Below are positions 16,867 through 63,935 of a stretch of 64,000 nucleotides of DNA, in pieces. The DNA lies in assembly GCF_009193295.2 (NCBI RefSeq), contig NZ_CP059973.1:4588001-4652000 (forward strand), given 5' to 3'. This DNA is from Bacteroides luhongzhouii. Its GTDB lineage: Bacteria > Bacteroidota > Bacteroidia > Bacteroidales > Bacteroidaceae. Position 1 is the stretch's first letter; each line of letters begins with the position of its first letter. The notes under the pieces are model-generated. The model saw only the letters and a program-made list of their open reading frames with translations, did no database searches and was not told the origin of the DNA. The position numbers and the translations under genes are program-made.

Positions 16867-16925
16867 ATTAAGGCACGGATTACACGGCTCTAATTAAATA
16901 AAAACTGTGTAATCCGTGCCTTAAT
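16867..16925. repeat. Perfect 19-bp inverted repeat
   Basis: Arms at 16867-16885 and 16907-16925, built on GGCACGGATTACAC / GTGTAATCCGTGCC with a 21-nt loop. The core word GGATTACAC is close to those in the 1702-1995 repeat. It lies between uvrA (ending at 16984) and ybaK (starting at 16794) on the minus strand, so it may also stop uvrA transcription, though no T-run follows. Confidence 0.7.
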
Positions 16926-28852: not shown

Positions 28853-28857
28853 CATTG

Positions 28858-28920
28858 TGTTTTTCATAGTATTAGATTTAAGGTTAACAAAGGTTGGAGC
28901 AAGGCGTTGCTCCTTTTTTT
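28858..28920 (+). ncRNA. Short RNA gene, copy 1
   Basis: Predicted 63-nt RNA starting about 6 nt after the -7 box and ending in a Rho-independent terminator: stem GGAGCAA/TTGCTCC (28896-28902, 28907-28913) and seven Ts. No coding frame. A second copy at 29927-29989 is nearly identical over about 85 bp that include the -7 box, with 2 differences seen. The copies bracket the SGNH hydrolase gene. Multicopy short-RNA families are known in Bacteroides (I recall a paralogous family called FopS); whether this belongs there I cannot check. Start and ends are inferred. Confidence 0.6.
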
Positions 28921-29043
28921 ATGTCTATACGTCATCTAAAACCTTTTCAACAACTATATCCATAGAAGTGCACATTCACAATAAATGCTGCCCAACTTTA
29001 TTATCAGACAGCATTTATATTTCAAAATTTACATCAATAAACC

Positions 29044-29921: not shown

Positions 29922-29926
29922 CAATG

Positions 29927-29989
29927 TGTTTTTCATAGTATTAGATTTAAGGTTAACAAAGGTTGGAGCAAGGCGTTGCTCCTTTTTTT
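29927..29989 (+). ncRNA. Short RNA gene, copy 2
   Basis: Same 63-nt predicted RNA and terminator (stem arms 29965-29971 and 29976-29982, then seven Ts) as copy 1, offset by 1069 bp. Visible differences are A for T at 29924, before the transcript, and C for T at 29993, after the terminator, so the transcripts themselves look identical. It ends about 100 bp upstream of the KilA-N gene. Confidence 0.6.
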
Positions 29990-30092
29990 ATGCCTATATA
30001 TTAGAAGTGAGTTTAACATACCTTGAATAAAAAGTGATATATACGTTTCTTTATTCCCAAATATAACTTTACCTTTACTGAAAAATCAGAAT

Positions 30093-49073: not shown

Positions 49074-52000
49074 ATGAAGAAACAAGAACTTTTTAACAAC
49101 GTAACAGAAGGATTCCCTTACCAACGACAGCCCAAACAGATGGGCTTGTACAATGCGGCATACGAACACGATGCCTGCGGTGTTGGTATGCTGGTAAACA
49201 TTCATGGAGAAAAGTCACACGACATTGTTGAGTCGGCTTTAAAGGTATTAGAGAACATGCGCCACCGCGGCGCCGAAGGTGCGGATAACAAAACCGGCGA
49301 CGGTGCAGGTATCATGCTGCAAATTCCGCATGAGTTTATTTTATTGCAAGGTATTCCTGTACCCGAAAAAGGACGGTACGGCACAGGATTGTTATTTTTG
49401 CCGAAAAATGAGAAAGACCAGGCAGCTATTTTAAGTATCATTATTGAAGAAATCGAAAAAGAAGGACTCACATTGATGCATTTGCGCAATGTGCCCACCT
49501 GCCCTGAAATTTTGGGAGAATCTGCCCTGGCAAACGAACCTGACATCAAACAGGTGTTTATCACCGGATTTACAGAAACGGAAACGGCCGACCGGAAGTT
49601 ATATCTGATCCGGAAAAGAATCGAGAATAAGGTCAGATTGTCATCCATTCCGACAAAGGACGATTTTTATGTTGTTTCGCTTTCTACAAAAAGCATTATA
49701 TATAAAGGTATGCTTTCGTCGTTACAACTGCGCAACTACTATCCGGACCTGACGAATAGCTATTTTACCAGCGGACTGGCACTGGTGCACTCTCGTTTCA
49801 GCACCAACACATTCCCTACATGGGGATTGGCACAACCATTCCGCCTTCTGGCACACAACGGTGAAATCAACACGATCCGTGGTAACCGCGGATGGATGGA
49901 AGCCCGCGAAAGCGTACTCTCCACTCCTACTTTAGGTGATATCAAAGAACTTCGCCCGATTATACAACCGGGCATGAGCGACAGTGCTTCTCTGGACAAT
50001 GTACTGGAGTTCCTGGTGATGTCGGGGTTGAGTCTGCCACACGCTATGGCTATGCTCGTGCCGGAATCTTTCAACGAAAAGAATCCCATCAGTGAGGATC
50101 TGAAATCATTCTACGAATACCACTCTATCCTGATGGAACCGTGGGACGGACCGGCTGCACTTCTCTTCAGTGACGGACGATTTGCAGGAGGTATGCTCGA
50201 CCGCAACGGTCTGCGCCCTGCCCGTTATCTGATTACTAAAAACGATATGATGGTAGTGGCTTCGGAAGTCGGTGTGATGGATTTCGAACCGGGAGACATC
50301 AAAGAAAAAGGTCGCTTACAGCCCGGTAAGATCTTGTTGGTGGATACGGAAAAAGGGGAAATTTATTATGATGGAGAACTGAAAAAACAGTTGGCTGAAG
50401 CCAAACCTTACCGCACCTGGCTGGCTACGAACCGAATCGAACTGGATGAACTGAAGAGCGGACGCAAAGTAGCTCATCAGGTAGAAAACTACGACTGCAT
50501 GCTTCGCACTTTCGGCTACTCCAAAGAGGATATCGAAAAACTGATTATGCCGATGGCAAGCAGCGGAGCAGAACCGATCCATTCAATGGGTAATGATACT
50601 CCGTTAGCTGTACTTTCGGATAAGCCGCAATTGCTTTACAACTATTTCCGGCAGCAATTTGCACAAGTGACCAATCCGCCCATCGACCCGCTCCGCGAAG
50701 AACTGGTGATGTCATTGACTGAATACATCGGGGCAGTCGGCATGAATATTCTGACCCCCAGCGAAAGCCATTGCAAAATGGTCCGCCTGAATCATCCGAT
50801 TTTGAGCAACACACAACTGGATATTCTTTGTAATATCCGTTATAAAGGTTTCAAAACAGTCAAACTGCCCATGTTATTTGAAGTAGCGAAAGGGAAAGCC
50901 GGATTGCAGGAGGCACTGAACAGCCTCTGTAAAATGGCGGAAGAATCTGTGACGGAAGGCGTAAACTACATTGTCCTGACCGACCGTGACGTGGATATTA
51001 CCCATGCAGCTATTCCTTCATTGCTGGCAGTAAGTGCCGTTCATCACCACCTGATTTCAGTCGGCAAACGTGTACAAACAGCATTGATTGTAGAAAGCGG
51101 TGAAATACGTGAGGTAATGCACGCTGCGTTATTACTGGGTTTCGGAGCAAGTGCCCTGAATCCTTACATGGCATTCGCCGTTCTCGACCGCTTGGTTAAA
51201 GACAGGGATATTCAGTTGGATTATGCCACTGCTGAAAAAAATTATATCAAATCCATCTGCAAAGGCTTGTTTAAAATCATGAGTAAAATGGGGATCTCTA
51301 CCATCCGCTCTTATCGTGGCGCAAAGATCTTCGAAGCCGTCGGTTTGAGCGAAGAATTGAGTAAGGCTTATTTCGGTGGACTCGGTTCGCCAATCGGAGG
51401 TATTCGCCTGGAAGAAATAGCCAGAGATGCCATTGCTTTCCATGAGGAAGGATTTGAAAAGATCAGAAATGGAAATGAAGGAACACAAAGTAATTCTCAA
51501 TCTTCTACTTTCAACTTTCCATTATTAAAAAACAACGGTTTGTATGCCTTCCGCAAAGACGGAGAAAAGCACGCATGGAATCCGGAAACAATCAGTACAC
51601 TGCAATTGGCTACACGGCTGGGAAGTTACAAGAAATTTAAAGAATACACTCATCTGGTAGACGAAAAAGAGAAGCCTATTTTCCTTCGTGACTTCCTGGG
51701 ATTCCACCGTAATCCGATTTCTATCGATCAGGTAGAACCGGTGGAAAACATTCTGCATCGTTTCGTCACGGGGGCCATGTCTTTTGGTTCTATCAGCAAA
51801 GAGGCTCATGAGGCAATGGCTATTGCCATGAATAAAATCCATGGACGCAGCAATACCGGTGAAGGTGGCGAAGACGCTGCCCGTTTCCAACCGCTGCCCG
51901 ATGGCAGTTCCTTACGAAGTGCAATCAAGCAGGTAGCTTCCGGTCGTTTCGGTGTAACGGCAGAATATCTGGTTAATGCGGACGAGATTCAGATTAAGAT

Positions 52001-53669
52001 AGCACAAGGGGCAAAGCCGGGTGAAGGTGGACAACTTCCGGGATTTAAAGTGAATGATGTGATTGCGAAAACACGCCATTCCATTCCGGGAATTTCACTG
52101 ATTTCTCCCCCGCCTCATCATGATATTTATTCGATTGAGGATTTGGCACAATTAATCTTCGATCTGAAAAATGTAAATCCACAGGCCAAAATCAGTGTGA
52201 AACTGGTAGCAGAAAGTGGCATCGGTACGATTGCCGCCGGCGTGGCAAAAGCAAAGGCGGACCTGATTGTCATCTCCGGTGCTGAAGGGGGAACAGGTGC
52301 TTCTCCGGCTTCTTCTATCCGTTATGCGGGCATCTCACCGGAATTGGGATTGAGCGAGACACAGCAGACATTAGTTTTGAACGGACTTCGTGGTCAAGTA
52401 GTTCTGCAAGCCGACGGACAACTGAAAACCGGGCGTGACATCATCTTAATGGCGCTAATGGGTGCCGAAGAATATGGCTTCGCCACCTCGGCATTGATTG
52501 TATTAGGGTGTGTAATGATGCGTAAATGCCATCAGAATACTTGTCCGGTGGGAGTTGCCACACAGAATGAAGAATTGCGTAAACGCTTTCATGGGCGTAG
52601 TGAATATTTGGTAAATTTCTTCACATTCCTGGCACAGGAGGTCCGCGAGTATTTGGCTGAAATGGGATTCACCAGAATGGATGATATTATCGGGCGCACA
52701 GACTTGATCGAACGTAAGCCCGTTGCCAACGACCCGAATCCGAAACATGCGTTAATCGACTTCACCAAATTGTTGGCACGCATTGATAACAACGCGGCTA
52801 TCCGCCATGTCATCGATCAGGATCACGGTGTTTCTACTGTAAAGGATGTAACCCTTATTGATGCGGCACAGGAAGCTATTGAACATGAGAAAGAGATTTC
52901 TTTAGAATATACGATTGCCAATACAGACCGTGCAATAGGTGCCATGCTCTCCGGAGTGATTGCCAAGAAATACGGTGCCAAAGGATTGCCGGAACATACG
53001 CTGAATGTGAAGTTCAAAGGCTCGGCAGGTCAGTCTTTCGGGGCTTTCCTCGTACCGGGAGTTAACTTTAAACTGGAAGGTGAAGCGAACGATTATCTGG
53101 GTAAAGGATTGAGCGGCGGACGCATCTCCGTATTGCCTCCTATCCGCAGCAACTTCGAAGCCGAAAAGAATACAATTGCCGGTAATACCTTGCTTTATGG
53201 AGCAACAAGCGGTGAAGTATATATCAACGGTCGTGTAGGAGAACGTTTCGCAGTTCGTAACTCCGGTGCAGTTGCCGTAGTGGAAGGTGTGGGCGACCAT
53301 TGTTGCGAATACATGACAGGAGGTCGTGTCGTAGTCCTCGGGCAAACCGGACGTAACTTCGCAGCCGGAATGAGTGGCGGTGTGGCTTATGTATGGAACA
53401 AGGATGGCAACTTCGATTATTTCTGCAACATGGAAATGGTGGAACTGTCACTCATCGAAGAAGCCAGCTACCGGAAGGAGCTACACGAACTAATCCGCCA
53501 ACATTATCTGTACACAGGCTCAAAACTAGCCCGTACCATGCTTGACAACTGGAATCATTATGCAGACCAGTTCATCCAAGTAGTACCCATCGAATACAAA
53601 AAAGTATTGCAGGAAGAACAGATGAGAAAATTGCAACAAAAAATTGCAGACATGCAAAGAGACTATTAA
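49074..53669 (+). CDS. gltB: Glutamate synthase, large subunit
   Basis: 1531 residues. Class II glutaminase domain with nucleophile Cys35 (HDACGVGM, after a propeptide), SRFSTNTFPTWGLAQPFR and GEINTIRGN; central domain; FMN-binding domain with EGGTGASPASS; [3Fe-4S] cysteines in CVMMRKCHQNTCPVG; and the C-terminal beta-helix domain with its repeated Gly motifs (GLSGGRISVLPP, YMTGGRVVVLGQ). It converts glutamine and 2-oxoglutarate to two glutamates. At about 798-822 there is a low-complexity insertion (NSQSSTFNFPLL). Its stop codon is part of the 44-nt element at 53666-53709. First gene of gltB-gltD-asnB. Confidence 0.96.
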   Translation: MKKQELFNNVTEGFPYQRQPKQMGLYNAAYEHDACGVGMLVNIHGEKSHDIVESALKVLENMRHRGAEGADNKTGDGAGIMLQIPHEFILLQGIPVPEKGRYGTGLLFLPKNEKDQAAILSIIIEEIEKEGLTLMHLRNVPTCPEILGESALANEPDIKQVFITGFTETETADRKLYLIRKRIENKVRLSSIPTKDDFYVVSLSTKSIIYKGMLSSLQLRNYYPDLTNSYFTSGLALVHSRFSTNTFPTWGLAQPFRLLAHNGEINTIRGNRGWMEARESVLSTPTLGDIKELRPIIQPGMSDSASLDNVLEFLVMSGLSLPHAMAMLVPESFNEKNPISEDLKSFYEYHSILMEPWDGPAALLFSDGRFAGGMLDRNGLRPARYLITKNDMMVVASEVGVMDFEPGDIKEKGRLQPGKILLVDTEKGEIYYDGELKKQLAEAKPYRTWLATNRIELDELKSGRKVAHQVENYDCMLRTFGYSKEDIEKLIMPMASSGAEPIHSMGNDTPLAVLSDKPQLLYNYFRQQFAQVTNPPIDPLREELVMSLTEYIGAVGMNILTPSESHCKMVRLNHPILSNTQLDILCNIRYKGFKTVKLPMLFEVAKGKAGLQEALNSLCKMAEESVTEGVNYIVLTDRDVDITHAAIPSLLAVSAVHHHLISVGKRVQTALIVESGEIREVMHAALLLGFGASALNPYMAFAVLDRLVKDRDIQLDYATAEKNYIKSICKGLFKIMSKMGISTIRSYRGAKIFEAVGLSEELSKAYFGGLGSPIGGIRLEEIARDAIAFHEEGFEKIRNGNEGTQSNSQSSTFNFPLLKNNGLYAFRKDGEKHAWNPETISTLQLATRLGSYKKFKEYTHLVDEKEKPIFLRDFLGFHRNPISIDQVEPVENILHRFVTGAMSFGSISKEAHEAMAIAMNKIHGRSNTGEGGEDAARFQPLPDGSSLRSAIKQVASGRFGVTAEYLVNADEIQIKIAQGAKPGEGGQLPGFKVNDVIAKTRHSIPGISLISPPPHHDIYSIEDLAQLIFDLKNVNPQAKISVKLVAESGIGTIAAGVAKAKADLIVISGAEGGTGASPASSIRYAGISPELGLSETQQTLVLNGLRGQVVLQADGQLKTGRDIILMALMGAEEYGFATSALIVLGCVMMRKCHQNTCPVGVATQNEELRKRFHGRSEYLVNFFTFLAQEVREYLAEMGFTRMDDIIGRTDLIERKPVANDPNPKHALIDFTKLLARIDNNAAIRHVIDQDHGVSTVKDVTLIDAAQEAIEHEKEISLEYTIANTDRAIGAMLSGVIAKKYGAKGLPEHTLNVKFKGSAGQSFGAFLVPGVNFKLEGEANDYLGKGLSGGRISVLPPIRSNFEAEKNTIAGNTLLYGATSGEVYINGRVGERFAVRNSGAVAVVEGVGDHCCEYMTGGRVVVLGQTGRNFAAGMSGGVAYVWNKDGNFDYFCNMEMVELSLIEEASYRKELHELIRQHYLYTGSKLARTMLDNWNHYADQFIQVVPIEYKKVLQEEQMRKLQQKIADMQRDY

Positions 53670-53709
53670 TCGGCACCGGCAAAGTGCCGGAGCCAGGTTT
53701 CCATGCGGA
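53666..53709 (+). promoter_or_regulatory. 44-nt element, copy 1 (gltB-gltD junction)
   Basis: Matches 62385-62428 at 37 of 44 positions. The gltB stop TAA is at element positions 2-4. A hairpin folds at 53672-53694: stem CCGGCA/TGCCGG, loop AAG, extended by GGC/GCC around an A.A mismatch. A small second hairpin may form at TTCC-ATGC-GGAA. gltD starts 30 nt later. Confidence 0.7.
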
Positions 53710-53738
53710 ATTATTTGAACTTAAAACTGAAAAACAAT

Positions 53739-55079
53739 ATGGGAGATCCTAAAGCATTTCTAAATATACCTCGACAAGAGGCGGGATACCGCCCTGTAAA
53801 CGAGCGAATCGCTGACTATAGTCAGGTAGAACAGACTTTGAATACAAACAGCCGTAAATTGCAGGCGTCACGCTGCATGGATTGCGGTGTACCTTTCTGT
53901 CATTGGGCATGCCCGATAGGAAATAAACAACCGGAATGGCAGGATGCATTATACAGGGGAAAATGGAAGGAGGCATACGAAGTATTGTCGTCTACTTGCG
54001 ATTTTCCGGAATTTACGGGACGTATTTGTCCTGCTCTTTGCGAGAAATCGTGTGTGTTGAAACTTTCCTGCGATCAGCCGGTGACTATTCGCGAGAATGA
54101 AGCAGCTATCGTGGAAGCGGCTTTTCGTGAAGGATATATACAGATAAAGACTCCGGAAAGAAACGGAAAGAAAGTGGCGGTGATTGGTGCGGGTCCTGCC
54201 GGATTGGTAGTGGCTAATCAGCTGAATTTAAAAGGATATAGCGTTACTTTATTCGATAAGGATGAAGCACCCGGAGGGTTATTACGGTTCGGTATTCCTA
54301 ATTTCAAACTGGATAAGAATGTGATTGACCGACGGATGAAGATATTGGCTGCAGAAGGAATACAGTTTGAAATGGGAGTAGAAATAGACGTCAATCATTT
54401 GCCGGAAGGATTCGACGCTTACTGCATCTGTACCGGAACGCCGACTGCACGTGATTTGAGTATTCCGGGACGTGAACTGAAAGGCATCCATTTCGCACTT
54501 GAAATGCTGGCACAGCAGAACAGGATTCTGGCAGGACAGACTTTCCCGAAAGATAAATTGGTGAATGCCAAAGGCAAAAAAGTACTTGTGATAGGTGGCG
54601 GAGATACCGGTTCCGACTGCATCGGAACCAGTGTGAGACAGGGAGCCGTCAGTGTCACTCAAATCGAAATCATGCCGAAACCTCCTGTCGGCTACAATCC
54701 GGCTACTCCTTGGCCACAATGGCCGGCAGTCTTCAAAACGACTTCCAGCCATGAAGAAGGTTGTACACGCCGCTGGTGCCTGGCTTCCAATCAGTTCCTC
54801 GGAAAGAATGGAAAAGTGACAGGTGTAGAAGTGGAAGAAGTAGAATGGATTCCGGCAGCAGATGGCGGACGTCCCACAATGAAACCAACAGGGAAGAAGG
54901 AAGTCATCGAAGCTGATATGGTATTGCTGGCAATGGGATTCTTAAAACCGGAGCAACCGAAATTTGCAAAGAATGTATTCCTTGCCGGTGATGCCGAGAC
55001 TGGTGCCAGCCTGGTGGTACGCGCCATGGCGGGCGGACGAAAGGCCGCTGTGGAAATAGATGCTTATCTGAAACAATAA
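53739..55079 (+). CDS. gltD: Glutamate synthase, small subunit
   Basis: 446 residues from MGDPKAFLN; an upstream ATG at 53703 lies inside the 44-nt element and is rejected. N-terminal [4Fe-4S] cysteines in CMDCGVPFCHWACP and CPALCEKSCVL; FAD site GAGPAGLVVANQL, NADPH site IGGGDTGSDCIG and the FAD-binding LAGDAETGASLVVRAM near the end. It feeds electrons from NAD(P)H to GltB. It follows gltB by 69 bp. Confidence 0.95.
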   Translation: MGDPKAFLNIPRQEAGYRPVNERIADYSQVEQTLNTNSRKLQASRCMDCGVPFCHWACPIGNKQPEWQDALYRGKWKEAYEVLSSTCDFPEFTGRICPALCEKSCVLKLSCDQPVTIRENEAAIVEAAFREGYIQIKTPERNGKKVAVIGAGPAGLVVANQLNLKGYSVTLFDKDEAPGGLLRFGIPNFKLDKNVIDRRMKILAAEGIQFEMGVEIDVNHLPEGFDAYCICTGTPTARDLSIPGRELKGIHFALEMLAQQNRILAGQTFPKDKLVNAKGKKVLVIGGGDTGSDCIGTSVRQGAVSVTQIEIMPKPPVGYNPATPWPQWPAVFKTTSSHEEGCTRRWCLASNQFLGKNGKVTGVEVEEVEWIPAADGGRPTMKPTGKKEVIEADMVLLAMGFLKPEQPKFAKNVFLAGDAETGASLVVRAMAGGRKAAVEIDAYLKQ

Positions 55080-55126
55080 GTTCTGCAACAGTATACAACA
55101 GGAAGCTCGATCGCTATTACCGGTTC

Positions 55127-55210
55127 GTTCCATATCTGTGGAACTAAAAGATAACAGATATGGAACTAAAGGGAAACAGTTGTGGAACTAAACGATAACA
55201 ATTATGGAAC
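55127..55210. repeat. Four TGGAAC repeats with exact 22-bp period, upstream of asnB
   Basis: TGGAAC at 55139, 55161, 55183 and 55205, each step 22 bp; three are followed by TAAA and a (G)ATAACA- or GAAACA-like word. An inverted copy GTTCCA stands at 55127. 22 bp is about two helical turns, so the sites would lie on one face of the DNA. A protein-binding array and a degenerate tandem repeat are both possible. Confidence 0.65.
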
Positions 55211-55293
55211 GAATTAAGAATAGCTAGTCAGCTTCTTAGAAATAGCGAATAAACAATCAACAGATTACATTACCCCCTCTAAAAATTAAATTT

Positions 55294-56961
55294 ATGTGTG
55301 GAATAGCAGGTATACTCAACATCAAAGTTCAAACGAAAGAACTAAGAGATAAAGCACTGAAAATGGCCCAGAAGATCCGTCATCGCGGACCGGACTGGAG
55401 CGGAATCTATGTAGGCGGAAGTGCCATCCTGGCACACGAACGTCTTTCCATTGTCGACCCGCAGAGTGGCGGACAACCGTTATACTCTCCCGATCGTAAA
55501 CAGGTGCTCGCCGTCAACGGTGAGATTTACAATCACCGTGATATTCGCGCTAAATATGCGGGAAAATATAACTTTCAAACCGGAAGTGACTGTGAGGTAA
55601 TTCTTGCCCTTTACAAAGATAAAGGCATCCATTTTTTGGAAGATATCAGCGGTATCTTCGCTTTCGTTCTTTATGATGAGGAAAAGGATGAATTTCTGAT
55701 TGCCCGTGATCCGATAGGGGTTATTCCTTTATATATAGGAAAAGATAAAGAGGGAAAAATCTACTTCGGCAGCGAGTTGAAAGCTCTCGAAGGATTTTGT
55801 GACGAATATGAAGTATTCCTTCCCGGACATTATTTCTATAGTAAAGAGGGCAAAATGAAACGTTGGTATTCGCGCGACTGGACAGAATATGAAGCTGTAA
55901 AAGAGAATGATGCACAAACCGATGATGTGAAAGTGGCATTAGAAAATGCCGTACATCGTCAGTTAATGAGTGACGTACCGTATGGAGTACTTCTTTCGGG
56001 TGGGTTGGATAGTTCCGTCATCTCCGCCATTGCCAAAAAATATGCGGCAAAGCGTATAGAAACAGACGGTGCAAGCGATGCATGGTGGCCCCAACTCCAC
56101 TCTTTCGCCATCGGTCTAAAGGGCGCCCCCGATTTGATTAAAGCGCGTGAGGTGGCCGAATATATCGGTACCGTCCATCACGAGATCAACTACACTATTC
56201 AGGAAGGTCTGGATGCTGTTCGCGATGTTATTTATTTCATCGAGACGTATGATGTAACTACCGTACGCGCTTCCACTCCCATGTATTTATTGGCGCGTGT
56301 CATCAAATCAATGGGTATCAAAATGGTGTTGAGCGGTGAAGGCGCCGATGAAGTTTTCGGAGGTTATCTGTACTTCCACAAGGCCCCTACTCCACAGGCA
56401 TTCCACGAAGAAACAGTACGTAAACTTTCAAAGTTGCACATGTACGATTGCCTCCGTGCCAATAAAAGTCTGTCAGCATGGGGAGTAGAAGGGCGCGTCC
56501 CTTTCCTTGATAAAGAATTTCTCGATGTAGCAATGAACCTGACCCCGAAAGCTAAAATGTGCCCCGGAAAAAACATCGAGAAACGAATTGTCCGCGAAGC
56601 CTTTGCCGATATGTTACCAGAAAGTGTGGCTTGGAGACAGAAGGAGCAGTTCAGTGACGGTGTAGGATATTCATGGATTGACACATTGAGAGAAATCACA
56701 GCAGCTGCCGTGAGCGATGAGCAAATGGAACATGCTGCCGAACGTTTCCCGATCAATACGCCACAAAACAAAGAAGAGTACTACTATCGTAGCATTTTCG
56801 AGGAGCATTTCCCCAGTGAAAGCGCAGCACGCACCGTCCCCAGCGTTCCTAGCGTAGCCTGCTCCACAGCAGAAGCACTGGCATGGGACATCGCTTTCAG
56901 AAATCTGAACGAACCTAGCGGACGTGCAGTGAAAGGAATACATGAAGAGGCCTATACTTAA
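55294..56961 (+). CDS. asnB: Asparagine synthetase B (glutamine-hydrolysing)
   Basis: 555 residues. Class II glutaminase with Cys2 (MCGIAGIL), RHRGPDWSG, AHERLSIVDP and NGEIYNH; synthetase domain with ATP pyrophosphatase motif LLSGGLDSSVISA and SGEGADEVFGGYLYF. It makes asparagine from aspartate, glutamine and ATP. Third gene after gltD but separated by 214 bp with tandem repeats, so it may have its own control. A hairpin (AATAACG...CTGTTATT) and a T-rich stretch follow. Length typical of the E. coli type. Confidence 0.95.
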   Translation: MCGIAGILNIKVQTKELRDKALKMAQKIRHRGPDWSGIYVGGSAILAHERLSIVDPQSGGQPLYSPDRKQVLAVNGEIYNHRDIRAKYAGKYNFQTGSDCEVILALYKDKGIHFLEDISGIFAFVLYDEEKDEFLIARDPIGVIPLYIGKDKEGKIYFGSELKALEGFCDEYEVFLPGHYFYSKEGKMKRWYSRDWTEYEAVKENDAQTDDVKVALENAVHRQLMSDVPYGVLLSGGLDSSVISAIAKKYAAKRIETDGASDAWWPQLHSFAIGLKGAPDLIKAREVAEYIGTVHHEINYTIQEGLDAVRDVIYFIETYDVTTVRASTPMYLLARVIKSMGIKMVLSGEGADEVFGGYLYFHKAPTPQAFHEETVRKLSKLHMYDCLRANKSLSAWGVEGRVPFLDKEFLDVAMNLTPKAKMCPGKNIEKRIVREAFADMLPESVAWRQKEQFSDGVGYSWIDTLREITAAAVSDEQMEHAAERFPINTPQNKEEYYYRSIFEEHFPSESAARTVPSVPSVACSTAEALAWDIAFRNLNEPSGRAVKGIHEEAYT

Positions 56962-56970
56962 CTGATAAAA

Positions 56971-57004
56971 AATAACGGAAATAGCAAATTCTGTTATTCT
57001 TTTG
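56971..57004 (+). terminator. Probable terminator of asnB
   Basis: Imperfect hairpin AATAAC-GGAAAT with ATTCTGTTATT (56971-56998), followed by CTTTTG. Confidence 0.5.
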
Positions 57005-57030
57005 TAGCATTTCTATTCTAAAATCCCAAG

Positions 57031-57072
57031 GATTAACGCAGATTAGCATATTATCGGCTGATTTGCGTTATC
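57031..57072. repeat. Imperfect inverted repeat before the GDPD gene
   Basis: GATTAACGCAGATTAGC (57031-57047) faces GCTGATTTGCGTTATC (57057-57072), with G-U or compensated changes, followed by six Ts. It belongs to the AATCTG(C/T)G word family seen at 1702-1995 and may act as terminator. Confidence 0.5.
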
Positions 57073-57079
57073 TTTTTTA

Positions 57080-57087
57080 TAATTTTG
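57080..57087 (+). promoter_or_regulatory. -7 box of the GDPD gene
   Basis: TAATTTTG, 46 bp before the ATG at 57134. Confidence 0.5.
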
Positions 57088-57133
57088 AGGCCAAACCCAA
57101 TTAAATCTATCAAACTTTTAAAAGACCAAACTA

Positions 57134-57901
57134 ATGAATTTAAAAAAAATGATGATGGCTTCTGCCCTTCTAATGGCTGCTTGCTGTATGCAGGCACAGA
57201 CAAAAGTGATAGCTCACCGCGGTTTCTGGAAAACTCCGGGATCATCGCAGAACAGTATTTCATCACTTCTAAAAGCAGATTCCATCGGTTGTTACGGTTC
57301 AGAATTTGACGTATGGATCGCGAAGGATAACAAGTTAGTGGTTAACCATGATCCCGTATACAAGATGAGGCCGATGGAATATTCCAAAGGTGATGCGCTG
57401 ACCGGACTTAAATTATCCAACGGAGAAAACTTACCCAGCCTGGAACAGTATCTGGAAGCCGGAAAAAACTGTAAAACCCAACTGATTCTCGAACTGAAAG
57501 CACATAGTAACAAGAAACGCGAGACTAAAGCGGTGCAGGGAATCGTTGCCATGGTAAAGAAAATGGGATTGGAAAACCGTATGGAGTACATCACATTCTC
57601 TCTGCATGCCATGAAAGAGTTTATCCGTCTGGCTCCTGCCGGTACTCCGGTATTTTACCTTAACGGAGACCTGTCTCCCAAAGAACTGAAAGAACTCGGT
57701 GCTGCCGGTCTTGACTATCACATGGGAGTGATTAAGAAACACCCCGAATGGATCAAAGAAGCCCACGACCTCGGCTTGAAAGTAAACGTATGGACAGTGG
57801 ACGAAGTAGAAGACATGAAATCGCTGATTGAACAAAAGGTAGATTTCATCACCACTAATGAGCCGGTCATCTTACAAGAAGAGCTTAAAAAGCTTCAATA
57901 A
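57134..57901 (+). CDS. Secreted glycerophosphodiester phosphodiesterase
   Basis: 255 residues. A signal peptide (MMMASALLMAACCMQAQ) precedes the GDPD domain: VIAHRGFWKTPGSSQNS with the catalytic His-Arg, SEFDVWIAKDNKLVVNHDPVY with the metal-binding Glu/Asp and the second catalytic His, LILELKAH, and the closing VNVWTVDEVEDMKSLI and FITTNEPV. It hydrolyses glycerophosphodiesters in the periplasm to glycerol-3-phosphate and an alcohol. It has its own promoter and is followed by a set of hairpins. Confidence 0.9.
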   Translation: MNLKKMMMASALLMAACCMQAQTKVIAHRGFWKTPGSSQNSISSLLKADSIGCYGSEFDVWIAKDNKLVVNHDPVYKMRPMEYSKGDALTGLKLSNGENLPSLEQYLEAGKNCKTQLILELKAHSNKKRETKAVQGIVAMVKKMGLENRMEYITFSLHAMKEFIRLAPAGTPVFYLNGDLSPKELKELGAAGLDYHMGVIKKHPEWIKEAHDLGLKVNVWTVDEVEDMKSLIEQKVDFITTNEPVILQEELKKLQ

Positions 57902-57940
57902 GAAAAAATATTCACATATTAAACAATTCAACAGCTGGGC

Positions 57941-58026
57941 TTTAAGGAAACGAAATCTTCCTTTAAAAGAAACAGGTTGTTTCTCGGTGTCAAACGGGTG
58001 TTTCCTTTTAAAGGAATCACCCGTTT
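57941..58026. repeat. Three consecutive hairpins after the GDPD gene
   Basis: Hairpin 1: TTTAAGGAA/TTCCTTTAAA (57941-57967). Hairpin 2: GAAACA-GGT-TGTTTC (57969-57983). Hairpin 3: AAACGGGTG/CACCCGTTT (57992-58000, 58018-58026) continuing inward with TTCCTT/AAGGAA. No T-run follows. GGAAAC/GTTTCC words dominate. Confidence 0.65.
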
Positions 58027-58146
58027 CTTTAAATGGAAAATCATCTTCTATAACGCTCTAAATACCAACACTTTAAAAGTGTCATTTTTTTTAATTAAAA
58101 AGAAAAGGGATCTTCCTATGAATAACAATAAAAGATTACAGACAAT

Positions 58147-58443
58147 TCATTGGAAATCATCCAATACTTCTTTTAATTCTTCTACTGTAAGCTCTCCTAC
58201 CTGTCTCCATAGTTCATGACTATTATGCAATAGAAGGAAAGCCGGTACTGTTTCTACATTATGTGCATCGGCAATTGCTCTATTCTCTTCTGCATTCACT
58301 CTAATCAATTCTACAGTTCTCTTTTCGTAAGTTCGAAGCACAGGTCCTATCCACTCATAATGAGGGGACCAATCGGCATAGAATACCACCAACACCAGAT
58401 GGTTGGTTTTAATTGCTGTTTCTAGTTGTTTCTCTATATTCAT
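58147..58443 (-). CDS. Thioredoxin-fold protein without active-site cysteines
   Basis: 98 residues, no signal. The thioredoxin fold is clear from LVLVVFYADWSPHYEWIGPVLRTYE, VELIRVNAEENRAIADAHNVETVPAFLLL (with the cis-Pro) and LWRQVGELTVEELKEVL. The CxxC that should follow the Trp is SPHY, so it cannot catalyse disulfide exchange; there is no Cys in the protein. It could be a chaperone or binding partner. It is alone on the minus strand between two + units. Confidence 0.82.
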   Translation of the reverse strand: MNIEKQLETAIKTNHLVLVVFYADWSPHYEWIGPVLRTYEKRTVELIRVNAEENRAIADAHNVETVPAFLLLHNSHELWRQVGELTVEELKEVLDDFQ

Positions 58444-58857
58444 ATCGCTATGTTTTTATATTAATGATAGTGCTAAAACAATGAATACAGAAAAAGGTTC
58501 TTCAAAATATCCCGCGAGCAATATGATAGAGAAATAAGGTTTTTCACTTTCATATCGTCAAAAGAAAAAGAATGTATTTCCTGTTTTTATAACTGGTTTC
58601 ATCGATTATCAGGGCTAAATATTCTTCATATATTATGAAAGGATATGCAAAACAATTCACCCAAATAACAATTTATTAATATAGATATATATATAATTTC
58701 AAATTATAACTAAACATAGTCGTATAAAAGGCGATTATAAGTTTAAAGAAAATAAATAGAGATTAGACATACTTTTCAGCAAAATATAAAGCAAAAAGTC
58801 ATACCTTTGTGTCGTAATAAAACAAAAGGATACAGCAACCTATAAATATCAATCAAA
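58444..58857. other. 414-bp AT-rich region before dapF
   Basis: No gene visible. It must carry the promoter of the thioredoxin-like gene on the minus strand, and it carries that of dapF (-7 box TACCTTTG at 58802-58809). A simple AT stretch (ATATAGATATATATATAA) lies at about 58680-58696. Confidence 0.55.
58802..58809 (+). promoter_or_regulatory. -7 box of the dapF-dapL unit
   Basis: TACCTTTG, 48 bp before the dapF ATG. Confidence 0.6.
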
Positions 58858-59667
58858 ATGATATCAAAGATTAAGTTCACTAAAATGCATGGAGCTGGAA
58901 ATGACTACATATATGTAGACACGACCAGATATCCGATAGCAGACCCTGAAAAGAAAGCGATCGAATGGAGCAAGTTTCATACAGGAATCGGAAGCGATGG
59001 ACTTATATTGATTGGTGTCTCTGATAAAGCAGATTTCAGTATGCGTATTTTCAATGCCGACGGTTCGGAAGCAATGATGTGTGGCAATGGTAGCCGCTGT
59101 GTAGGCAAATATGTATATGAATACGGATTGACTGATAAAACAGAAATAACTTTGGAAACACTATCGGGAATTAAGATTCTGAAATTGCAGGTAGAGGAAA
59201 AAACAGTCAGTGCAGTCACCGTAGATATGGGCAGTCCGCAAGAAACAGGAGAGATTGATTGGGGAAAGAAATATCCTTTCCGATCTACTAAAGTATCAAT
59301 GGGTAATCCTCATCTCGTCACATTTGTTGATGACATTACCCAAATTAATCTTCCGGAAATTGGTCCTGAACTGGAGAATCATCTTCTCTTTCCCGACAGA
59401 ACGAATGTAGAGTTTGCACAGTTCGTCGGTAAAGACACCATACGGATGAGAGTGTGGGAAAGAGGATCGGGAATTACTCAGGCTTGCGGGACAGGTGCTT
59501 GCGCCACAGCAGTAGCCGCCTTCATCAACGGACTTGCAGGAAGAAAAAGCGATGTGATAATGGATGGAGGAACAGTTACCATCGAATGGGATGAAACCTC
59601 CGGACATATATTAATGACCGGACCGGCAACCAAGGTTTTCGATGGAGAGATTGATGATAAGTATTAA
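58858..59667 (+). CDS. dapF: Diaminopimelate epimerase
   Basis: 269 residues, cytoplasmic. Both catalytic Cys are visible: [16 protein letters not shown] (about 75-90) and [15 protein letters not shown] (about 208-222). [15 protein letters not shown] at the start is the family signature. It interconverts LL- and meso-diaminopimelate, giving the peptidoglycan and lysine precursor. It is followed by dapL 35 bp later, completing the aminotransferase route from tetrahydrodipicolinate. Confidence 0.96.
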
Positions 59668-59702
59668 GTATTAGATTTTGCAGAACTTAAAACAATAACA
59701 AG

Positions 59703-60935
59703 ATGGCATTAGTAAACGAGCATTTTTTAAAATTACCGGGAAGTTATTTATTCTCGGATATAGCGAAAAAGGTAAATACTTTCAGGATAACGCATCCCAA
59801 ACAGGACATCATCCGGCTAGGTATCGGCGACGTTACGCAGCCACTTCCTCCAGCCTGTATAGAAGCAATGCACAAAGCAGTAGAAGAACTGGCCAGCAAA
59901 GATACATTCCGCGGATATGGTCCTGAACAGGGATATGATTTTCTGATTGAAGCAATCATAAAAAACGATTTCGCTCCACGCGGGATTCATTTCTCAGCAT
60001 CCGAAATTTTCGTCAACGACGGGGCTAAAAGCGATACCGGAAATATAGGTGATATTCTTCGCCACGACAATAGCGTAGGTGTTACAGATCCCATCTATCC
60101 GGTTTACATAGACAGTAACGTTATGTGTGGACGCGCCGGGGTACTGGAAGAAGAAACGGGTAAATGGAGCAATGTTACTTATATGCCTTGCACAAGTGAG
60201 AACAACTTTATCCCGGAAATTCCGGTCAAACAGATAGACATCGTTTATCTCTGTTATCCGAACAACCCGACAGGGACCACCTTAACCAAACCGGAACTGA
60301 AAAAGTGGGTGGATTATGCCCTGGCAAACGATACACTGATTCTGTTCGATGCTGCTTACGAGGCATATATCCAGGACGAGAATGTCCCCCACTCTATCTA
60401 TGAGATTAAGGGAGCTAAAAAGTGCGCGATTGAATTCCGTAGTTTTTCAAAAACAGCAGGATTTACAGGAGTACGCTGCGGATATACCGTGGTTCCGAAA
60501 GAGCTCACTGCCGCCACTCTGGAAGGCGATCGCATACCACTCAACAGATTATGGAACCGACGCCAGTGTACTAAGTTCAACGGCACTTCTTATATTACTC
60601 AACGGGCAGCAGAAGCCGTTTACAGTGCAGAAGGCAAGGCTCAGATTAAAAAAACAATCGACTATTATATGACCAACGCAAAAATCATGAAGGAAGGACT
60701 GGAAGCGACGGGATTGAAAGTATACGGCGGAGTCAACGCTCCTTACTTGTGGGTGAAAACTCCGAACGGACTTTCTTCATGGCGATTCTTTGAACAGATG
60801 TTGTATGAAGCCAATGTGGTCGGGACTCCCGGTGTAGGCTTCGGACCAAGCGGTGAAGGGTATATCCGGCTGACTGCATTCGGCGAACGCAACGACTGTA
60901 TCGAAGCGATGAGAAGAATAAAAAACTGGCTCTGA
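59703..60935 (+). CDS. dapL: LL-diaminopimelate aminotransferase
   Basis: 410 residues. The PLP-binding Lys is in FRSFSKTAGFTGVRCGYTV; the fold type I motifs YPNNPTGT and FDAAYEAYI are present. It converts tetrahydrodipicolinate directly to LL-diaminopimelate with glutamate as amino donor, so one enzyme replaces the succinylase steps. Pairing with dapF is typical. It stands before the porin, glnK and amtB genes, tying cell-wall nitrogen demand to ammonium uptake. Confidence 0.96.
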   Translation: MALVNEHFLKLPGSYLFSDIAKKVNTFRITHPKQDIIRLGIGDVTQPLPPACIEAMHKAVEELASKDTFRGYGPEQGYDFLIEAIIKNDFAPRGIHFSASEIFVNDGAKSDTGNIGDILRHDNSVGVTDPIYPVYIDSNVMCGRAGVLEEETGKWSNVTYMPCTSENNFIPEIPVKQIDIVYLCYPNNPTGTTLTKPELKKWVDYALANDTLILFDAAYEAYIQDENVPHSIYEIKGAKKCAIEFRSFSKTAGFTGVRCGYTVVPKELTAATLEGDRIPLNRLWNRRQCTKFNGTSYITQRAAEAVYSAEGKAQIKKTIDYYMTNAKIMKEGLEATGLKVYGGVNAPYLWVKTPNGLSSWRFFEQMLYEANVVGTPGVGFGPSGEGYIRLTAFGERNDCIEAMRRIKNWL

Positions 60936-61005
60936 TTGAACGAATAATGGATAGCGGGAAATGGAAAGTTCAACATCCCCCATTAAACGAACATCATCAT
61001 TCCCG

Positions 61006-61033
61006 CATGATCAGTTATCCATGATCGGTTATC
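61006..61033. repeat. Two adjacent 14-bp direct repeats upstream of the porin
   Basis: CATGATCAGTTATC (61006-61019) and CATGATCGGTTATC (61020-61033), one mismatch. They lie 88 bp before the porin ATG, a suitable place for an activator. An ATAGTA/TACTAT inverted repeat follows nearby. Confidence 0.5.
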
Positions 61034-61120
61034 TATAAAAAACGATAGTATTTTGCGCGCTACTATATAACAAATGGACCGTACATCCACATTTTTCTAA
61101 CTTTTAAAGGTAAAAAGACG

Positions 61121-61882
61121 ATGAAAACGACGATTAACAACAAATTGGGGGTAATAACAGTAGCATTATTACTGTCAGGACTTGTCCCGTCTACAATGAT
61201 GGCACAAGATAAGGTAGAAGCTTCCGTTGGAGCAGATTTGGTAAGTGGCTACATCTGGCGCGGCCAGAATTTAGGCGGGGTTAGCGTCCAGCCTTCACTG
61301 GGAATCTCTTACAAAGGTTTATCACTCGGAGCATGGGGATCGGTGGGAATTGAATCCAAAGATGCAAAAGAGTTTGATTTAACTCTCGGTTATTCAATGG
61401 GTGGATTTAGTGTTTCAATAACGGATTATTGGTTTGATAAAACATATACAGGGGATGTAGATGAATACGGAAAGGAGATTTATACAACCAATAAATATTT
61501 CCAATATGGAGCCTATTCTACGGCTCACGTATTTGAAGCACAAGTGGGATATGATTTCGGTCCGCTAGCCGTCAACTGGTACACAAATTTTGCAGGTGCC
61601 GACGGTGTGAAAGAAAACGGCAAAAGAGCTTACTCTTCTTACCTCGCACTTAGCGCACCATTCAAATTGGGAGGTCTCGACTGGACAGTAGATTTAGGTA
61701 TGGTTCCCTGGGAAACGACTTTTTATAATGGCTATACCAGTGGATTCTGCGTAACAGACATCAGTCTCGGAGCATCCAAGGAGATTAAAATCACAGATTC
61801 CTTCTCCATACCGACATTTGCCAAAGTGACAGTGAATCCACGCACTGAAGGAGCCTACTTTGCTTTCGGACTAAGTTTTTAA
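61121..61882 (+). CDS. Outer-membrane porin-like protein of the ammonium cluster
   Basis: 253 residues. The signal peptide ends at MMAQ. The mature part is built of amphipathic strands with aromatic ends (DLVSGYIWRGQNLGG, VQPSLGISYKGLSLGAWG, FDLTLGYSMGGFSVSITDYWF) and closes with AYFAFGLSF, a terminal Phe signature for barrel insertion. YxWRG-type motifs are frequent in TorF-like putative porins; I assign it there tentatively. It stands just before glnK and amtB, so it may admit nitrogen compounds through the outer membrane (inference). Confidence 0.78.
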   Translation: MKTTINNKLGVITVALLLSGLVPSTMMAQDKVEASVGADLVSGYIWRGQNLGGVSVQPSLGISYKGLSLGAWGSVGIESKDAKEFDLTLGYSMGGFSVSITDYWFDKTYTGDVDEYGKEIYTTNKYFQYGAYSTAHVFEAQVGYDFGPLAVNWYTNFAGADGVKENGKRAYSSYLALSAPFKLGGLDWTVDLGMVPWETTFYNGYTSGFCVTDISLGASKEIKITDSFSIPTFAKVTVNPRTEGAYFAFGLSF

Positions 61883-62031
61883 GAGAGAGAATTTACAATA
61901 CAAAGAGTGTATAGGGATTAGAAAAGGTAGTTAGAGTTTAGATTTTATCGGTTTGTTGTATGGTAACCTGCTATGGCTGCCGCTACCCTATACCTCTTTC
62001 TTTTACAAGACATACTAATATTTTAAGGTAT

Positions 62032-62388
62032 ATGAAAAAGATTGAAGCTATTATCCGTAAGACCAAATTCGAGGACGTAAAAGACGCTCTTCTCGAAGCG
62101 GACATCGAATGGTTCTCTTATTACGATGTAAGAGGCATTGGAAAAGCACGGCAAGGACGTATCTACCGTGGCGTAGTATATGACACCAGCACCATTGAAC
62201 GAATTTTGATCTCTATTGTCGTACGCGACAAGAATACCGAGAAAACAGTGCAGGCTATCATTAAAGCTGCACAGACCGGAGAAATCGGTGACGGACGTAT
62301 TTTCGTCATTCCTATCGAAGACGCTATCCGCATCCGCACTGCCGAACGTGGTGACATAGCCCTCTACAATGCAGAACAAGAACGTTAA
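62032..62388 (+). CDS. glnK: P-II family nitrogen regulator
   Basis: 118 residues from MKKIEAIIRKTKF; the longer open frame upstream has no family match. The PII fold is clear: the T-loop region GKARQGRIYRGVVYDTST has the conserved Tyr in YRG, followed by ILISIVVRD; the B-loop TGEIGDGRIFVIP binds ATP; C-loop RIRTAERGDIAL. It blocks AmtB when nitrogen is plentiful, binding ADP/ATP and 2-oxoglutarate. The T-loop is atypical compared with enteric GlnK. Its stop codon is inside the second 44-nt element; amtB follows 107 bp later. Confidence 0.95.
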   Translation: MKKIEAIIRKTKFEDVKDALLEADIEWFSYYDVRGIGKARQGRIYRGVVYDTSTIERILISIVVRDKNTEKTVQAIIKAAQTGEIGDGRIFVIPIEDAIRIRTAERGDIALYNAEQER

Positions 62389-62428
62389 TCGGCAGCGGCA
62401 AGGTGCCGCTCCCTGGTTTCCTTGCGGA
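62385..62428 (+). promoter_or_regulatory. 44-nt element, copy 2 (glnK-amtB junction)
   Basis: Same element as 53666-53709. Hairpin at 62391-62413: stem AGCGGCA/TGCCGCT, loop AGG, with outer GG/CC pairs beyond a C.C mismatch. The outermost C-G pair of copy 1 is G-C here, a compensated change. The glnK stop TAA is at element positions 2-4, as with gltB. amtB starts 68 nt later. Confidence 0.7.
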
Positions 62429-62495: not shown

Positions 62496-63935
62496 ATGGA
62501 TACAAAATATAAAAGCCATAGCTTCGTAAAGCTGTGGATAGCCACTACTATATTCATTTTGTGCTGTTTTACTACTGATATGTCGGCACAAAACACAGCC
62601 GCTGCCGATACAGTTACAGCAGTTACAGAAACAATTACCGAAGTCGTTGCCGCTCCTGCCGAAGAAGCATCAGCAGCTCCCGATACGGTTGGAGAATTAG
62701 CTCTTGGATTGAATACTGTATGGATGTTGCTTGCAGCAATGCTCGTATTCTTCATGCAGCCGGGATTTGCATTAGTAGAAGCTGGTTTTACCAGAGTGAA
62801 AAATACTGCCAACATTCTGATGAAGAACTTTGTAGATTTCATGTTCGGCTCTTTACTATACTGGTTTGTCGGTTTCGGATTGATGTTCGGCGCAGGTGGA
62901 TTCATCGGAATGCCCCACTTCTTCGACCTTTCTTTCATTGATAATGGTTTGCCAACCGAAGGATTCCTCATATTCCAAACCGTATTCTGTGCGACAGCAT
63001 CTACAATTGTATCAGGAGCCATGGCAGAACGTACAAAATTCTCCATGTATATCGTCTACACCATCTTTATCAGTGTACTGATTTATCCGATATCCGGTCA
63101 CTGGACATGGGGCGGAGGCTGGTTGATGAACGGTGAAGAAGGTTCTTTCATGATGAATCTCTTCGGAACCACATTCCATGACTTTGCCGGTTCCACAGTC
63201 GTTCACTCTGTAGGCGGATGGATTGCTTTGGTAGGTGCTGCCATTCTTGGTCCCCGTATCGGTAAATATAGTAAAGAAGGCAAATCAAAAGCTATCCCAG
63301 GCCATAGCCTGACTATTGCTGCACTGGGTGTATTCATTCTTTGGTTCGGATGGTTCGGATTCAATCCCGGTTCTCAATTGGCAGCAGCAACCGAAGCTGA
63401 CGCTATCGCCATCTCCCACGTATTCCTGACTACGAATCTGGCAGCTTGTGCCGGTGGTTTCTTTGCTCTGTTGGTGAGCTGGATGAAATATGGAAAACCT
63501 TCTCTGTCATTGACACTGAATGGTATCTTGGCAGGACTGGTAGGTATCACAGCAGGATGTGACGCAGTATCTCCTGCAGGAGCAGCCTTAATAGGTGCAA
63601 TATGTGGTGTCGTAATGATATTCTCCGTTGACTTCATTGACAAGGTTTTAAAGATTGACGATCCGGTAGGTGCATCTTCTGTACATGGTGTTTGTGGCTT
63701 TTTAGGAACTATTCTTACAGGTTTGTTCTCCACCAGTGAAGGTTTATTCTATGGTTACGGTTTCGGATTCCTCGGTGCACAAATATTCGGAGCATTGATA
63801 GTAGGTGCATGGGCAGCCGGCATGGGATTCATCATTTTCAAAACGCTTGATAAGATTCACGGACTTCGCGTTCCGGCACGTGTCGAAGAAGAAGGCCTTG
63901 ACATTTACGAACACGGAGAATCTGCTTACAACTAA
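62496..63935 (+). CDS. amtB: Ammonium transporter
   Basis: 479 residues. A signal sequence (about 1-30) and a short Ala/Glu-rich segment precede 11 transmembrane helices. Amt motifs: FVDFMFGSLLYWFVGFG, GHWTWGGGW, FHDFAGSTVVHSVGGWIALVGA (with the first pore His) and VHGVCGFLGT (with the second). Cytoplasmic C-terminus carries LRVPARVEEEGLDIYEHGE. It takes up ammonium and is gated by GlnK. Last gene of the visible operon. Confidence 0.96.
   Translation: MDTKYKSHSFVKLWIATTIFILCCFTTDMSAQNTAAADTVTAVTETITEVVAAPAEEASAAPDTVGELALGLNTVWMLLAAMLVFFMQPGFALVEAGFTRVKNTANILMKNFVDFMFGSLLYWFVGFGLMFGAGGFIGMPHFFDLSFIDNGLPTEGFLIFQTVFCATASTIVSGAMAERTKFSMYIVYTIFISVLIYPISGHWTWGGGWLMNGEEGSFMMNLFGTTFHDFAGSTVVHSVGGWIALVGAAILGPRIGKYSKEGKSKAIPGHSLTIAALGVFILWFGWFGFNPGSQLAAATEADAIAISHVFLTTNLAACAGGFFALLVSWMKYGKPSLSLTLNGILAGLVGITAGCDAVSPAGAALIGAICGVVMIFSVDFIDKVLKIDDPVGASSVHGVCGFLGTILTGLFSTSEGLFYGYGFGFLGAQIFGALIVGAWAAGMGFIIFKTLDKIHGLRVPARVEEEGLDIYEHGESAYN

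Follow-up and report, generated by a model that had tools for sequence, protein, structure and literature searches.

Repetitive extragenic palindromic sequences (REPs) are, according to excerpts of PMC3733652, palindromic extragenic repeats of 20-40 nt with stems of 6-9 bp and loops of 2-4 nt. The same excerpts state that REPs can supply stop codons, form dimers and have in-frame intragenic copies, and that REPs of the CGTC type, which are without a dedicated transposase, are present in some Bacteroidetes. One subclass of the REP transposase TnpA-REP (subclass 2.6, mostly Bacteroidetes) is described in part of PMC6006769 as bordered by atypical hairpins that lack GT[AG]G. Hairpins also occur inside operons: of 34 operon pairs of Escherichia coli whose 5' gene is stabilised, 26 end at a stable hairpin (PMC5927463, in excerpt). 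We analysed a 64,000-nt window of the Bacteroides luhongzhouii genome (NZ_CP059973.1, positions 4,588,001 to 4,652,000) in which a 44-nt hairpin element follows both gltB and glnK. We think it likely that these two hairpins are members of a dispersed, once-mobile, REP-like family of extragenic DNA hairpins found in part of Bacteroides. The support comes from copies after unrelated genes, patchy occupancy of orthologous junctions, tandem and inverted units, and a pair of copies inserted in frame in nuoL.

The two window copies have the same hairpin core. Positions 53666-53709 and 62385-62428 are identical at 37 of 44 positions, and in both the TAA stop codon of the upstream gene makes up element positions 2-4 (gltB, 53667-53669; glnK, 62386-62388). 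A preliminary description of the window had stated this, and the sequence, a pattern search and the open reading frames bore it out. A pattern fitting both copies matched the window exactly twice and none of 100 shuffles; with the covariation described below, this led us to reject a chance match. In copy 1 the hairpin occupies 53676-53690 (stem 53676-53681/53685-53690, CCGGCA/TGCCGG; loop 53682-53684) and in copy 2 it occupies 62395-62409 (stem 62395-62400/62404-62409, GCGGCA/TGCCGC; loop 62401-62403), so that the outer pair changes from C-G to G-C. Each hairpin is followed by a tail that column counts over 56 cores show to be conserved (AGCCAGGTTTCCATGCGGA at 53691-53709 and TCCCTGGTTTCCTTGCGGA at 62410-62428). 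The preliminary description placed a hairpin of 9-10 pairs right after the stop codon; the 6-bp stem stands, but the additional outer pairs are not kept by other copies. The fold of copy 1 (49 nt) was better than that of shuffled sequences (z -3.07, 1 of 200 shuffles) and the fold of copy 2 was not clearly better (z -1.19, 25 of 200).

The element is dispersed in B. luhongzhouii and in some of its relatives. We built a 34-nt family model, R2, from 56 distinct gap-free cores (source: 77 matches in 71 fetched loci) plus 3 from a profile scan. In the window R2 matched the two copies alone, with 55 bits for copy 1 (53676-53709) and 50.1 bits for copy 2 (62395-62428). Five complete Bacteroides genomes had 61 matches at E<=1, of which 44 were at E<0.001; the counts at E<=1 were 7 in B. 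luhongzhouii, 23 in G202, and 9, 13 and 9 in the others. Copies per complete genome ranged from 5 (G000, at the threshold of its search) to 23 (G202). An earlier model, R1, made from six copies, had matches at E<=1 in 96 of 158 genomes of the genus, with 20 in G132 and 19 in G202, some of them chance at that threshold. Searches of the order and the family used stricter filters that lose weak matches: 295 genomes of the order gave B. luhongzhouii and, outside the genus, 3 marginal matches (E 0.002-0.009) at E<=0.01, and 201 genomes of the family gave B. luhongzhouii alone at E<=0.001. There was no match in the 12 other members of the genus among those 201, so part of Bacteroides does without the family.

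Copies in the B. luhongzhouii genome follow unrelated genes. Besides gltB and glnK, R2 matches the junction of a gene for an RND adaptor and cusA and, more weakly, speA|argB (E 0.015) and hisF (E 0.31). Copies of a second subfamily, described below, lie between gnd and zwf and beside thiE, where the other neighbour, thiG, was recognised by eye without a family match. The preliminary description had offered a dispersed extragenic repeat as its alternative, to be recognised by many copies scattered after unrelated genes in the same genome, and that is largely what these copies, together with those in relatives, amount to.

The stem covaries, and the pairing is kept. The family core has a stem of about NNGGCA/TGCCNN, a 3-nt loop and the conserved 3' tail NNCCAGGTTTCCATGCGGA. 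Among 59 cores, 97.9% of cells were paired, with 70 double-change cells versus 19.5 in shuffles; slid controls paired at 28-53%. The stem variants CCGGC, GCGGC, GTGGC, CCAGC, GGGGC and AAAGC all occur with their complements. Subfamilies are distinguished by the loop, and loop and tail variants co-occur by subfamily. The main type has AGG or a similar loop in a 34-nt core. The second subfamily has the loop TAG within GCGTAGCGC, and many of its copies are part of a longer repeat (AAATGATAATTTA-hairpin-ATGTTGTCATTTTAGGCACGGATTACACGG...) that includes an arm of another dispersed repeat. Tandem units are present in loci L112, L113 and L163.

The covariation of the main stem is not a sign of selection on an RNA strand. 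A hairpin that is selected as RNA on one strand is expected to tolerate G-U more than A-C. Across 108 distinct cores, the mismatches in main-type stems were 13 G-T and 12 A-C, and those in second-subfamily stems were 4 and 4. Since G-T and A-C are equally common in the main stem, the swap of the outer pair, which had been taken to point to RNA structure, exists but does not single out RNA. The 3' part had also been described as conserved and able to form a second small hairpin. It is conserved across cores; in the family alignment the second stem (TCC....GGA) has just 2 pairs, though it varies with pairing kept. In the main type its mismatches were 15 G-T and 0 A-C, a pattern that RNA pairing could produce, as could plain sequence variation. 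We dropped a loop-tail pseudoknot (loop GG with tail CC) by reasoning, as two linking bases cannot span six pairs.

Main-type copies lie mostly between genes, close to stop codons and in the sense direction. Gene calls came from a simple codon-usage caller that had been tried on the window, and the figures that follow carry some bias. Among 27 main-type matches at E<0.001 in the five complete genomes, 22 had their start between -2 and +11 nt relative to a stop codon on the same strand, and 25 were sense between same-strand genes; the other 2 are the inverted pair in nuoL of G162. In fetched loci of at least 2,000 nt, 109 main-type matches fell into 32 loci: 23 sense between same-strand genes (one of which merges nuoK|nuoL with the pair inside nuoL), 2 antisense, 2 convergent, 1 divergent and 4 within called genes. 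The copies at 28 of the 32 loci are therefore outside called genes, as in a small palindromic repeat dispersed between genes. The junctions include nuoH|nuoI, nuoK|nuoL, mraY|murD, clc|fmt, speA|argB, hydG|hydF and susC|susD; the only ones in nitrogen assimilation are those of gltB and glnK (2 of 32). The second subfamily had no significant orientation bias (8 to 4), and 7 of its 21 loci were convergent.

Occupancy of orthologous junctions is patchy. Of 80 Bacteroides genomes, 61 yielded GlnK and 68 the end of GltB, and we read the best 30 of each, B. luhongzhouii included. The element was present at 5 of the 30 best glnK junctions and missing from G162, which has a 100% identical GlnK. At gltB it was present in B. 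luhongzhouii (1 of the 30 best), with a decayed relative in G171. The genus-wide model search added copies at glnK in G258, G202 and G198 and at gltB in G202, G197 and G243. The element is common to some relatives at these two sites and absent from most junctions read, which is not the conservation expected of a regulatory RNA of nitrogen operons.

The same pattern was seen at other operons. Ten joined C-termini were searched in 14 genomes and seven sites were read (hydG, hisF and the decarboxylase were left out). By R2 at E<=0.001, 34 of 88 orthologous junctions were occupied: mraY 4 of 13, nuoH 1 of 12, nuoK 6 of 13, clc 6 of 14, speA 8 of 14, RND adaptor 6 of 11, and rlmI 3 of 11 (two of the 11 read by eye only). 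Decayed or variant copies were seen by eye at nuoH (G121, G150), the RND adaptor (G121, G141) and mraY (G197). The remaining junctions were empty or had another repeat or unrelated sequence, and the stop codon often changed along with the occupant. An inverted repeat, AGGCACGGATTACACGGATT...AATCCGTGTAATCCGTGCCT or near variants, follows mraY in G121, G270, G202 and G198 and speA in G202, G198 and G121. At nuoK the stem is AAAGC in G198 and GTGGC in G202, and G132 has the first half of that in G198 followed by that in G202, which by sequence looks like turnover of units rather than two point changes.

Other repeats use the same places. A second dispersed repeat has arms of GGCACGGATTACACGGATT in inverted pairs about 30-60 bp apart, one pair being in the window at 16872-16920; the arms had 57 matches (<=2 mismatches) in the B. 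luhongzhouii genome versus 0 for a reversed control, and in relatives this type of repeat sits in the slot after the stop codons of mraY and speA. Hairpins of a third type, GTTTCA...GAAAC, sometimes in arrays, follow the nuoK stop in G162, G000, G270, G121 and G141 (nuoK|nuoL junctions of L273, L275, L269, L267 and L276).

An inverted pair of copies is inserted in frame in nuoL of several species (L132 1443-1519, L109 1701-1783, L110 and L147). Both arms matched R2 at E<0.001 in G177, G129, G162 and G270, and one arm was weaker in G121 and G197. Where nuoL is complete (five species), the pair adds 13-20 residues between IFWG and HESPLAM; the G197 gene is cut by the end of the locus, and the nuoL genes of B. 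luhongzhouii and G202 are without the pair. This is an insertion inside a membrane-protein gene, without a role at an operon junction, and it points to spread as DNA. A second inverted pair lies between convergent genes in G202 (3654008/3654105). The family has, then, both the inverted dimers and the in-frame intragenic copies known from REPs. Palindromic insertions in frame in protein genes, as in nuoL, are also a property of the Rickettsia palindromic elements as they are described in part of PMC3733652; in Bacteroides a single intragenic locus, nuoL, was verified.

The operon context of the window copies was as reported in the preliminary description, gltB|gltD and glnK|amtB, with all features on the + strand. 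Copy 1 lies between gltB (49074-53669, glutamate synthase large subunit) and gltD (53739-55079, with its start, MGDPKAF, placed by similarity to relatives), and copy 2 lies between glnK (62032-62388) and amtB (62496-63935). GltB, GltD and AmtB scored above NCBIfam cut-offs; the best match of GlnK, P-II, falls below its cut-off. There is an in-frame ATG at 53703 in the tail of copy 1, 12 codons 5' of the conserved gltD start. It is probably unused, because translation from its counterpart in G202 would meet a stop. Between stop codon and stem, both copies have TCGGCA (53670-53675 and 62389-62394), which, by comparison with G202, G132 and G177, seems to repeat part of the stem's 5' strand; L115, L083 and L125 have CCGGCAA-CCGGCAAGG at the place corresponding to that in copy 1. 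We examined 30 neighbouring proteins of the family's loci with NCBIfam models. Those above cut-off were NuoH, NuoK, NuoL, MraY, MurD, Fmt, HisIE, SpeA, ArgB, HydG, HydF, an RND adaptor, CusA/CzcA, SusC, a nucleoside permease and a sodium-pump decarboxylase beta subunit; NuoI, SusD, Clc, RlmI, PelZ, a HisF fragment and GlnK/P-II were best matches below cut-off.

Several observations weigh against the spread of the family as mobile DNA. No mobilising enzyme was identified by a Y1_Tnp search of 16 genomes, and no target duplication was established; a candidate duplication at the mraY site (AGATA in G141) was dropped, since it was not seen in the other species compared. Copy number per genome is low relative to classical REPs. 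The ratio of sense to antisense loci, 23:2 (p about 2e-5), would not be predicted for an inert DNA repeat, and 16 of the 23 sense loci were within -2 to +3 nt of the stop versus 9.2 expected from a null in which the 25 nt ahead of the next start are kept free. For the wider interval of -2 to +14 nt, the figures were 19 of 23 versus 13.9. The seeds of R1 were flanked by stop codons, and position statistics may be biased by this.

The sense bias leaves room for a role in mRNA, which may be a later one. One version is that the element is a selected intercistronic mRNA element. Lying after the stop codon, the sense hairpin would shield the message of the gene before it or keep termination apart from the following start, and its gain and loss would tune adjacent genes of core operons. 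The orientation bias and the tight placement at stops are in favour, as are the G-T-only mismatches of the second short stem, the E. coli operon pairs cited above and the fact that neither window copy has a terminator-like site. Against it, the main stem has no excess of G-T over A-C, orthologous operons manage without the hairpin, and a pair is inserted in frame in nuoL. We consider this version possible but rather unlikely. We are similarly doubtful that sense copies beside stop codons make up a working, portable intercistronic RNA element that Bacteroides acquires and discards to adjust the ratio of adjacent genes in core operons, one of several unrelated repeat families competing for the slot after the stop. 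The hairpin between malE and malF, as described in part of PMC5927463, is comparable in that it lies between genes of an operon and has no U-tract. However, many of the E. coli structures are, in the same excerpt, conserved in Salmonella and Enterobacter, whereas occupancy in Bacteroides varies among sister species.

A canonical REP family moved by a REP-associated tyrosine transposase (RAYT, that is, TnpA-REP) that has since been lost from many genomes is an unlikely source of the copies. The family resembles the REPs in the excerpts of PMC3733652 in its size, palindrome, compensatory stem subfamilies, loop, dimers, supply of stop codons and in-frame intragenic copies. These properties and the position after genes fit REP behaviour, and the atypical hairpins of subclass 2.6 would be a precedent; Y1_Tnp genes in B. 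luhongzhouii, G132 and G163 are likewise in favour. The Bacteroides family differs in having a strong sense bias of the main type and few copies, and in having no GTAG or CGTC foot; its conserved motif is the 19-nt 3' tail. Neither foot tetranucleotide was found conserved in the 27 main-type copies of the five genomes: the TA before the stem derives from stop codons, and the GTAG-like letters of the second subfamily lie in the loop. Y1_Tnp genes were found in just 4 of the 16 genomes (1 in B. luhongzhouii, 1 in G162, 1 in G132 and 4 in G163) and not in the copy-carrying genomes G202, G198, G197, G141 and G129. None of the 7 Y1 loci had a full-length R2 hairpin, the only similarity being three 11-nt tail fragments (E 0.33-0.58), and the inverted repeats at 5 of the 7 came to one 14-nt pair. 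As no Y1 transposase gene flanked by the repeat was found at these 7 loci, we rejected a RAYT-driven REP; the family is REP-like in behaviour, is not shown to be driven by a RAYT, and is without GTAG/CGTC tags.

Control of gltD and amtB by a cis-acting RNA of nitrogen assimilation, which the preliminary description had proposed, is very improbable: both window copies are in nitrogen operons and copies occur at these two junctions in several relatives, but these are 2 of 32 loci, 25 of the 30 best glnK junctions are without the element, and the same element is found at unrelated operons. None of the observations needs nitrogen control as an explanation. We rejected a described RNA family, as Rfam at gathering score had no family at either window copy or, in 15 other loci, at the element itself (one FopS match lay elsewhere in L127), and an intrinsic terminator (a G+C-rich stem then a T run), as no such site was found at either copy, the sole one in 53400-53900 being at 53870, inside gltD. 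In a separate part of the window, the FopS small RNA family (RF04319) has two copies about 1 kb apart (28857-28923 and 29926-29992, 77.8 bits each).

Based on these comparisons, we favor spread as REP-like DNA, in which the hairpin would have been moved in trans by an enzyme. Many copies would now be vertically inherited and decaying, and would persist where they are least harmful, after a stop codon and ahead of the site where translation of the following gene begins. By analogy with malE-malF, sense copies that are transcribed may delay the 3' to 5' degradation of mRNA from the upstream gene.

Our literature searches, which mostly missed subscription papers, turned up no published description of this element that we recognised. 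With this finding, a genus for which those searches showed no described family gains one that is REP-like and has subfamilies of its own, and a tempting story of nitrogen regulation is replaced. In sister species the slot after the stop codon is filled by different repeats or by none, which provides natural experiments on intercistronic hairpins and operon expression; related strains are likewise natural experiments on the spread of a repeat without an obvious transposase.

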